In this document: positions 40,501 to 43,500 of the stretch, one piece after another
Layout: every line of letters begins with the position of its first letter
Numbering within the stretch: the stretch's first letter is position 1
Assembly (NCBI GenBank): GCA_034336665.1
Contig: JAPFBE010000064.1
Location: 124,001 to 188,000, forward strand
Direction: 5' to 3'
DNA length: 64,000 nucleotides
Origin: Luscinia megarhynchos
Taxonomy: Eukaryota; Chordata; Aves; Passeriformes; Turdidae
Notes under the pieces: generated by a model
Told to the model about the DNA's origin: nothing
Database searches by the model: none
What the model saw: the letters and a program-made list of their open reading frames with translations, nothing else
Position numbers and translations under genes: made by a program

Positions 40501-43500
40501 TTCCCACTTCGAGTGTCCCAATTTCGGTGATTCCCAATTTGGGGTTCCAAATTTCGGTGATTCCCAATTTGGGGTCCCAAATTTGGGGTCCCCCAGGGCC
40601 CGGCACAACCTGAACGAGCTGTCCCAGGAGCGGCCTGGGGCTGATCCAGCCTCAGCCCTGGACTCGGGGGTGCAGCTCACGCAGGTGGGTTTTGGGTTTT
40701 GGGGGGCTCAGGTGATTTTTGGGGGGTCCAGGTGAATTTTTGGGGGGTCCAGGTGACCCGGGTGCATTTTTGGGGGAATTCAGGTGACCCAGGTGCATTT
40801 TTTGGGGGTTCAGGTGAATTTTTAGGGGGTTCAGGTGACCCAGGTGCGTTTTTTTGGAGGTTCAGGTGAATTTTTGGGGGATTCAGGGTGAATTTTTGGG
40901 GGTTCAGGTGACCCAGGGGCGTTTTTGGGGGATCCAGGTGAATTTTTGGGGGATCCAGGGTGAATTTTGGGGGGCTCAGGTGAATTTTTGGGGGTGCAGG
41001 TGACCCAGGTGCGTTTTTTGGGGGTGCAGGTCACACAGGTGAGGTTTTTGGGGGCTCAGGTGCGTTTTTTTGGGGTCCAGGTGAATTTTTGGGGGGTTCA
41101 GGTGACTCAGGGGGTTTTTGGGGGTTTCAGGTGATTTTTGGGGGTCCAGGTGACCCGGGTGCATTTTTGGGGAATTCAGGTGACCCAGGTGGGTTTTTTT
41201 GGGGGGTTTAGGGGATTTTTGGGGGTTCAGGTGACCCAGGTGAATTTTTGGGGGTTCAGGTGACACAGGTGAGGCTTTTTGGGGCTCAGGTGCGTTTTTT
41301 TGGGGCCCAGGTGAATTTTTGGGGGTTCAGGTGACAAAGGTGAATTTTTTGGGGGTTCAGGTGAATTTTTTGGGGGTCCAGGTGAATTTTTTGGGGGTCC
41401 AGGTGACCCAGGTGAGTTTTTGGGGACCCATGGGATTTTTTGGGGGTCCCCATTGTGATTTTAGGGTCCCAGCTTGATTTTTGGGGTGCCCAGTGTGACT
41501 CTGGGGTGCTCCAGGTCATTTTGGGGTCCCCATTGTGATTTTTGGGGTGCCATGGTTATTTTTTGGGGGTGCCCCAGGTGAGTTTTGGGGTTCCCATTGT
41601 GGTTTTTGGGTTCCCACTGTGATTTTTGGGGTGTCCCAGGTTCATTTTTGGGAGGCCCACTGTGAATTTTGGGGTGCCCCAGGTTATTCTGGGGATTTTT
41701 GGGGTGCCCCAGGTGAATCTGGGGTTTTTTGGGGTGCCCCATTATGATTTTTGGGGTGCCCAGGTTAATTTTTGGTGTGCCCATTGTGATTTTTGGGGGT
41801 TTTTGGGGTGCTCATTGTGATTTTTGGGGTACCCAGGGAATTTTTGGGGTGCCCAGGTGATTTTTGGGGTACCCAGGTTAATTTTGGGGTTCCCCAGGTG
41901 AATTTGGGGTTTTTTGGGGTGCCCATTATGATTTTTGGGGTTCCCATTATGATTTTTGGGGTGCCCCAGGTGTTCGTGGACACCGTGGGTCCTCCTGACA
42001 GGTACCAGGTGCCCAGGTGACTCAGAGGTCCCCCAGGTTGATTTTTGGGGTTCCCCAGGTGATTTTGGGGTTTTTGGGGGTGCCCATTATGATTTTTGGG
42101 GTGCCCATTATGATTTTTGGGGTGCCCAGGTGTTCGTGGACAACGTGGGTCCCGCTGACAGGTACCAGGTACCCAGGGGGATTTTTGGGGTGCCCCAGGT
42201 GATTTTGGGTTTTTTTGGGGTGCCCCAGATGATTTTGGGGTTTTTTGGGGTGCCCATTATGATTTTTGGGGTGCCCAGGTGTTCGTGGACACCGTGGGTC
42301 CCGCTGACAGGTACCAGGCACTCACTGTGATTTTTGGGGTGCCCATTGTGATTTTGGGGTTTTTTGGGGTGCCCCAGATGATTTTGGGGTTTTTTGGGGT
42401 GCCCATTATGATTTTTGGGGTGCCCCAGGTGTTCGTGGACACCGTGGGTCCCGCTGACAGGTACCAGGTGCCCAGGTGACTCAGAGGTCCCCCAGGTTGA
42501 TTTTTGGGGTTCCCCCAGGTGATTTTGGGGTTTTGGGGTGCCCATTATGATTTTTGGGGTGCCCAGGTGTTTCAGTGGACACGTGGGTCCCGCTGACAGG
42601 TACCAGGCACCCACTGTGATTTTTTGGGGTTCCCATTGTGATTTTGGGGTTTTTTGGGGTCCCCCAGGTGATTTTGGGGTTTTTTGGGGTGCCCAGGTGT
42701 TCGTGGACACCGTGGGCCCCGCTGACAGGTACCAGGCGCGGCTCCAGGCGCGGTTCCCGGGTTTGGGGGTCACCGTGCGCCCCAAAGCCGATTCGCTGTT
42801 CCCCGTGGTCAGCGCGGCCAGCATCTGCGCCAAGGTGGGACCCCAAAACCCCCGACCCCAAAAACACCCGGGGACCCCCCAAAAACCCTCCTGGGATCCC
42901 AGAAACCATCCTGGGACCCCCAAAATCTACCCTGGGACCCCAAAATACACCCTGGGACCCCAAAAACACCCGGGGACCCCTAAAATCTACCCTGGGACCC
43001 CAAAACCACCCTGGGACCCCTACTAACCTCCCTGGGACCCCAAAATCCCATCAGAGCCTCAAAAACCATCCTGGGATCCCAAAAACCCCTTCTGGGACCC
43101 CAAAAATCCCCTGGGACCCCAAAATAACCCCCTGGGACCCCTAAAACACCTCGGGACCCCAAAATAACCCCCGGGGGCCCCAAAATAACCCCTGGGACCC
43201 CAAAATCCGATCAGAGCCCCCCAAAAACCACCCCAGGGACCCTAGAAACCACGATTCGAAATCCACCCTGGGACTCCCAGTCCCTGGACCCCAAAAACCA
43301 CCGGGAACCTAAAATAACTCCTGGGACCCCAAAATCCATCCCCTGGGACCCCAAAACTGCTCCTGGGACCCCCAAAAATAACCCTGGGACCCCAAACGCA
43401 CTAACTCCCTGGGACCCCAAAATACCCCTGGGACCCTAAAAACCCGGACCCGAAAACCCCTGGGACCCCAAAACTACCCTGACCCCCAAAACCTCCTGGG

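Follow-up and report, generated by a model that had tools for sequence, protein, structure and literature searches.

Does an intron that carries several copies of the start of its downstream exon encode extra pieces of protein, does it hinder the splicing of its gene, or is it the by-product of its own instability? Intron 4 of RNASEH2A, in a 64-kb stretch of DNA (hereafter the window), raises this question, as the start of exon 5 lies there in tandem ahead of the complete exon. A preliminary description of the locus proposed that the copies could yield an RNase H2A with repeated active-site segments, or form a decoy array that lowers correct splicing. From the sequence of the locus, we consider it very probable that the array is a case of exon stuttering, in which the end of intron 4, together with the first 39 nt of exon 5, forms a block that is present five times in tandem (once in damaged form); in most transcripts, splicing is predicted to pass over the copies. 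A known kind of intron instability, with the copies as its by-product, explains them better than either of the earlier proposals.

Exon 5 of the gene matches RNase H2A chains at 1.2e-15 (phmmer), and the best 21 RNase H2A homologues among the matches listed are birds by their source names, which makes a bird the likely source of the genome. The local gene order in the window is HOOK2, JUNB, RNASEH2A, MAST1; HOOK2 exons lie on the minus strand (tblastn), and a JUNB-like bZIP frame and MAST1 exons were also located. All three genes lie near RNASEH2A in human as well. PRDX2, a further neighbour in human, gave no convincing match in the 64-kb window (best E 0.61 at 22.2 kb), an absence that concerns positions 31800-34400. 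One HOOK2 exon (22035-22106, minus strand) reads EHIQHIMTLEE*VQHEVMAAIQQV with an in-frame stop, likely an assembly error. Tandem repeats mask 75% of the window (Tandem Repeats Finder, TRF) and cover intron 4 heavily, with no unmasked stretch of at least 60 nt between 40697 and 42699. Donor-like CAGGTG repeats occupy the 5' half of this intron, and the repeats of the exon-5 edge its final 730 nt. G and T make up 37% and 35% of intron 4, and C and A 47% and 29% of intron 5. Matches to the intronic unit of 42429-42696 (GATTTTTGGGGTGCCCA-like), with 66-89% identity, lie on numerous further contigs; G/T-rich repeats of this sort are thus present at many loci of the genome.

The 39-nt start of exon 5 was searched by edit distance across the whole 64-kb window on both strands. 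Five copies were found ahead of the complete exon, itself at 0 edits, and there is no further match at up to 11 edits in the window on either strand (Table 1). The preliminary description had counted five copies of the 39 nt, each with its acceptor. The five sites and their acceptors stand, CCCAG or CCCCAG directly preceding every copy, but only four copies are intact 39-mers; the fifth is 40 nt long and its frame is broken. The donors said to arise at the unit junction of three copies are indeed seen, with GT at 41970, 42130 and 42429 and GC at the other two. The phase, 0 both at the end of exon 4 and at the start of exon 5, was confirmed by alignment to human RNASEH2A and to solved RNase H2A chains, and the proposed in-frame step of 13 residues also holds, as the four intact copies are open 39-mers in phase and use of a junction donor would add 39 nt. 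Amino-acid changes occur in two of these four (A to P at 41970, T to N at 42130). Further, the copied segment does hold the catalytic Asp assigned to it: because its FVD aligns with residues 139-141 of chain 8yjz_H, the copied Asp corresponds to D141, which we take to be catalytic in RNase H2A. The units of the array are 130-168 nt long and differ by substitutions and length. The array exceeds chance expectation: neither 20 shuffled versions of intron 4 nor the remainder of that strand contained a single match to the 24-nt edge of exon 5.

Table 1. Positions in the window of the exons, the intron and the exon-edge copies discussed in the text (donor scores from a 5' splice-site matrix; a slash marks the splice junction).
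Feature	Position	Strand	Details
HOOK2 exon with copied 3' edge and donor	18950..19092	-	25 copies in its own downstream intron; tblastn to HOOK2
RNASEH2A exon 4	40597..40684	+	phase-0 end; donor CAG/GTGGGT, score 6.0; placed by tblastn and alignment to contig C734
RNASEH2A intron 4	40685..42696	+	2012 nt; tandem repeats nearly throughout
Copy 1, VFVDTVGPPDRYQ	41970..42008	+	3 edits; 56.0 bits; acceptor CCCCAG; junction donor CAG/GTGCCC
Copy 2, VFVDNVGPADRYQ	42130..42168	+	2 edits; 63.9 bits; junction donor CAG/GTACCC
Copy 3, VFVDTVGPADRYQ	42279..42317	+	1 edit; 73.8 bits; followed by GC, without a GT donor
Copy 4, VFVDTVGPADRYQ	42429..42467	+	1 edit; 71.9 bits; junction donor CAG/GTGCCC
Copy 5	42567..42606	+	40 nt with indels, out of frame; 4 edits (aligner start 42569); 46.1 bits over 27 nt; followed by GC
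RNASEH2A complete exon 5	42697..42834	+	46 codons; donor AAG/GTGGGA; source of the copied edge
RNASEH2A exon 7	46150..46277	+	3' edge also copied into the next intron
Exon-7 3' edge copies	46391-46427; 46694-46719; weakly 46973-47043	+	65.9 bits and 52.0 bits for the first two; blastn-short

When the genome to which the window belongs (1.093 Gb, 1235 contigs) was searched, the RNASEH2A locus recurred on a second contig of 42,533 bases (C734), whose unique stretches are collinear with 6.5-42.8 kb of the window. All four RNASEH2A protein matches in the genome lie on the window contig and C734, and the only close JUNB matches are on the same two (100% and 97%), ten others being partial at 72-82%. 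We infer that C734 is a second haplotype of the locus; it could instead be a local duplication. On C734, three copies of the exon-5 start (at 40270, 40438 and 40600) precede exon 5 at 40752, two of them with CAG/GT next and one with CAGGGT. The copies on both contigs have one exon-5 breakpoint in common (after TACCAG), beyond which the intron's own repeat follows, beginning with GTGCCC in four of the eight copies and with close variants in the other four. As measured on two contigs of one assembly, which we regard as probable alleles, intron 4 is 2012 nt long with five copies in the window vs 3370 nt with three copies in C734. The approximate lengths in window and C734 are 2.04 and 1.12 kb for intron 1, 0.63 and 0.69 kb for intron 2, 3.19 and 2.12 kb for intron 3, and 2.01 and 3.37 kb for intron 4. 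The source exon is intact, exon 5 being open across 46 codons on both contigs with one mismatch and no gap over 136 aligned nt.

Over 26 aligned stretches of at least 100 columns, the two contigs differ by 331 mismatches and 377 gap openings in 8392 columns; two of these stretches lie out of order in intron-5 repeats, and without them the count is 272 mismatches and 334 gap openings in 7947 columns. True allelic differences seldom show more indels than substitutions. Since gap openings exceed mismatches here, assembly error is the likely source of the indels, and with an assembly this noisy, exact copy numbers and small differences are unsafe. The same excess of indels, together with the disagreement between the contigs on copy number, could suggest that the whole array is an assembly artefact of noisy long reads. 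We hold this to be extremely unlikely. The array is no artefact of a single contig, because C734 carries it too; the breakpoint and related unit types are common to both contigs; and the variation of the units in substitutions and length also argues against it. Further, the repeat structure of the PHF8 introns in chicken was verified in raw nanopore reads, according to the main text of PMC12954441. The preliminary description had named collapse of the copies in an independent assembly as a point against its reading. C734 answers half of this point: it belongs to the one assembly at hand, and the array has not collapsed there but persists with three copies.

If RNASEH2A were a pseudogene at this locus, its exon copies would be free to drift. 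In the window, exons 1, 2, 3, 6 and 7 do not keep to a single reading frame, and frame changes in exon 3 and in the GRGPVLG region at the end of exon 1 are common to both contigs. The remaining breaks, however, are not shared: on C734, exon 1 (between its ATG and GVDEAG) and the greater part of exon 2 read in one frame, unlike in the window, and in exon 4 the window has ALDSGVQLTQ at a place where the reading of C734 deviates. C734 ends in intron 5, so this comparison of coding frames covers exons 1-5. The intact exon 5 on both contigs also speaks against a pseudogene, as does the excess of indels over substitutions, which points to assembly error. The frameshifts mostly differ between the contigs and are likely to be assembly indels, and we consider it very unlikely that the gene is a pseudogene.

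The units themselves, numbered A1-A5 in the window and B1-B3 in C734 (n=8, from a noisy assembly), hold some record of the history of the array. Intronic substitutions number 0/98 between A1 and A4, 2/93 between A4 and B2, and 4/114 between A1 and B2. A2, A3 and B3 form a second group (intronic identity 0.87-0.91; 0.88 for A3-B3), and A5 and B1 are each nearest to A3 (0.75 in both cases). The unit types are not clean, because A4 is about equally near A2 (0.79) and A1 (0.80) by gapped identity. The order of units is roughly P Q Q P Q in the window and x P Q in C734, which suggests that a P-Q pair may predate the split of the two versions, followed by duplication of the pair in one version or by its loss from the other. 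In seven unit pairs, chosen for comparison and partly overlapping, with few sites, the substitutions add up to 10/273 in the exon part and 41/739 in the intronic part. The comparison of exon and intronic substitution in these pairs gives no clear signal of selection on the copies, which appear to diverge about as fast as the adjoining intron.

Copies of exon edges are found at other introns of the window as well. A set of 22 exon edges, which left out the MAST1 edges and some HOOK2 edges, was searched as 24-mers on the gene strand at up to 5 mismatches; some edges were placed one base off, within tolerance. Four of the 22 have copies, always in their own intron: the donor side of RNASEH2A exon 4 (2 copies), the acceptor side of exon 5 (4), the donor side of exon 7 (2) and the donor side of a HOOK2 exon (25). 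Beyond these introns, the strand searched carries no copy of any of the 22 edges, and 20 shuffles produced none either. A screen in the published style (blastn-short, 19 exon queries; hits of at least 20 nt and at least 42.1 bits) returned 13 hits of at least 20 nt, seven of which scored at least 42.1 bits (five from exon 5, two from exon 7); the best hit in one block-shuffled control scored 24.3 bits. All five exon-5 copies pass the 42.1-bit threshold (46.1-73.8 bits), with matches that start at exon base 1 in four of them and at base 15 in the damaged fifth. On C734, the exon-4 edge with its donor (GGTGCAGCTCACACAG/GTGAGG) matches not only the exon itself but also 13 places in intron 4 (blastn-short, 20-23 nt). 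Six of these intronic hits reach at least 34 bits and one reaches 42.1; the weakest do not rise above noise. Judging by these matches, both ends of intron 4 seed repeats, namely the donor edge of exon 4 and the acceptor edge of exon 5. The HOOK2 intron array (17608-18967, minus strand) consists of units of about 19 nt that comprise the last bases of the exon and the donor (CACCTGCTCAG/GTGAGACA-like); TRF counts 72.6 copies of the 19-nt unit at 17608-18960, and 25 copies are found at up to 5 mismatches of the 24-mer. By its motifs, it is an array of 5' splice sites. Repeats of a similar kind appear in database proteins. A Geospiza protein has GVPVQWYGG twice after the end of exon 7, as if it had been translated into an intron with a repeated exon-7 edge, and a low-quality record of hoatzin RNase H2A repeats 13 residues in frame (LNELSQDTAVGLI) in the exon-4 region. 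Both doublings could be annotation errors.

Intronic minisatellites are built of tandem units, and their length differs between versions of a locus. The RNASEH2A array resembles them in both respects; unlike them, its units carry a piece of a coding exon with a splice site. This combination was described in chicken as exon stuttering, in which copies of exon edges including the splice site lie in adjacent introns (Hron et al. 2026, PMC12954441). The main text of that paper gives 115 genes and 236 introns, 190 of the introns on dot chromosomes, with a median of 36 bp and 4 copies for the stuttered sequences and high length variation. Local expansions in other birds in some instances, and potential alternatively spliced transcripts, are also noted there. 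The likeness to the present locus extends to a coding-exon edge with its splice site in imperfect tandem through the adjacent intron, a simple-repeat intron, an intact exon and, probably, a variable intron length, and the RNASEH2A copies (39 nt, five copies) are near the published medians. As read from the sequence, the array has five features of stuttering outright, and the length variation is suggestive. The locus differs from the chicken cases in belonging to another genome, in the seeding of intron 4 at both ends and in the junction GT gained by some units. RNASEH2A is not named in the main text of PMC12954441, which was the sole literature source found for the term exon stuttering. Literature on RNASEH2A in chicken or other birds held nothing related, judged by titles and the starts of abstracts.

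A plausible course of events can be outlined. The first block would have formed when exon 5, at CAGG, was joined to a CAGG or GGTGCCC repeat word of the intron, presumably in a single founding fusion that preceded the divergence of the two versions. The block was then likely multiplied as intron repeats slipped or exchanged unequally, and later gain or loss of whole units, perhaps of a two-unit block, may have followed in one or both versions. The CAG/GT at some junctions would be a side effect of the join, because the intron repeat brings its own GT. The exon-4 donor is predicted to be spliced mostly to the acceptor of the complete exon 5, since units of 39 nt whose donors are weak or absent make poorly defined exons. 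Where a copy was occasionally used, it would add 13 residues per unit, or lead to a stop codon if no donor closed the unit.

Scored in bits with a 5' splice-site matrix, the junction donors reach about -0.4 (CAG/GTGCCC, at 41970 and 42429) and about -0.3 (CAG/GTACCC, at 42130), vs 6.0 and 4.2 for the real donors of exons 4 and 5. Not every copy has a usable donor and acceptor: two of the five are without GT, and by the same matrix the other three are without consensus at +4 and +5. Each copy also has an inner CAG/GTACCA (-0.4); splicing at this site would leave 32 nt of an intact copy and so disrupt the reading frame. The pyrimidine fraction of the acceptors is 0.55-0.60 in the copies vs 0.55 at exon 5. 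As the copy acceptors look no weaker than the true one, the prediction of skipping derives from the donors and the length. On this basis, the copies are likely skipped in most transcripts, and low-level use is possible.

Could the copies nevertheless be real cassette micro-exons, so that some RNase H2A contains extra 13-residue catalytic segments? The four open in-phase 39-mers and the CAG/GT at three junctions would permit it, and the low-quality hoatzin record shows a 13-residue in-frame doubling, although in the exon-4 region. A precedent comes from the potato RdRp gene, in which a duplication across an intron-exon border became a new intron, supported by 106 RNA-seq reads (PMC4974935); intron gain by tandem duplication was described by Hellsten et al. 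2011, as cited in PMC4974935. What the two systems share is a border-crossing copy of the acceptor and exon start, with a donor from exon-derived sequence, and here an acceptor precedes each copy and GT follows at three of five junctions. In the potato case reported in PMC4974935, however, a single duplication gave a new intron that is spliced in RNA, whereas here several copies lie in an unstable repeat. Against micro-exons stand the weak junction donors, the two copies without GT, and substitution levels in the exon part near those of the intron. Further, among the best 120 of 5952 homologue matches, all from other species, VDTVG occurs once in 117, is absent in 3 and occurs twice in 0. The proposal of repeated active-site segments is thus not supported, and we regard cassette micro-exons as highly improbable. 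A literature search on micro-exons, VNTRs and exonization returned nothing related by appearance among the matches listed. A variant in which stuttering itself makes new exons can also be conceived: the join of CAGG to a GT-bearing repeat would create a closed in-frame 39-nt micro-exon, the copy number of which would then vary per allele by unequal exchange. If true, birds of one species would make RNase H2A with differing numbers of catalytic-strand segments. The chances of this are very slim; given the spliced intron of potato RdRp, the idea is not absurd.

The second proposal, a decoy array that lowers correct splicing, would mean that decoy sites compete with the true ones and reduce RNASEH2A output by an amount that depends on allele length. 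This appears rather unlikely. It is correct that the copy acceptors resemble the true acceptor. In addition, among the 192 GT sites of intron 4 there are five, two of them CAGGTGAGT, whose score is no lower than that of the exon-4 donor, and use of a copy acceptor without a donor would lead to a stop codon in five of five cases. However, a decoy function is unsupported by what can be tested here, and the main text of PMC12954441 describes such arrays as common on chicken dot chromosomes in genes with intact coding regions. A literature search for decoy sites or pseudoexons with minisatellites found nothing.

Read as exon stuttering, the array adds a nuclease gene from a further genome to a phenomenon reported in chicken in 2026. 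What it contributes most strongly is the three-copy second version of the locus, along with the common breakpoint and the seeding from both ends of intron 4. For the question whether copies of exon edges are ever spliced, the RNASEH2A array is a clean locus to test. Gene annotation at stuttered loci may also be misled, and the Geospiza and hoatzin proteins show such a repeated edge or segment.

A separate observation concerns introns 4 and 5 around exon 5 (42397-43134), which are mutually complementary. For the adjoining 300-nt pieces that flank exon 5, the duplex energy is -284.4 vs -190.3 (SD 12.3) in 40 shuffles, with 0/40 as low; the values for the flanks of exons 3, 4 and 6, calculated without shuffles, are -270.5, -184.1 and -62.7. 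The complementarity of the exon-5 flanks could favour skipping of exon 5 or formation of circular RNA.
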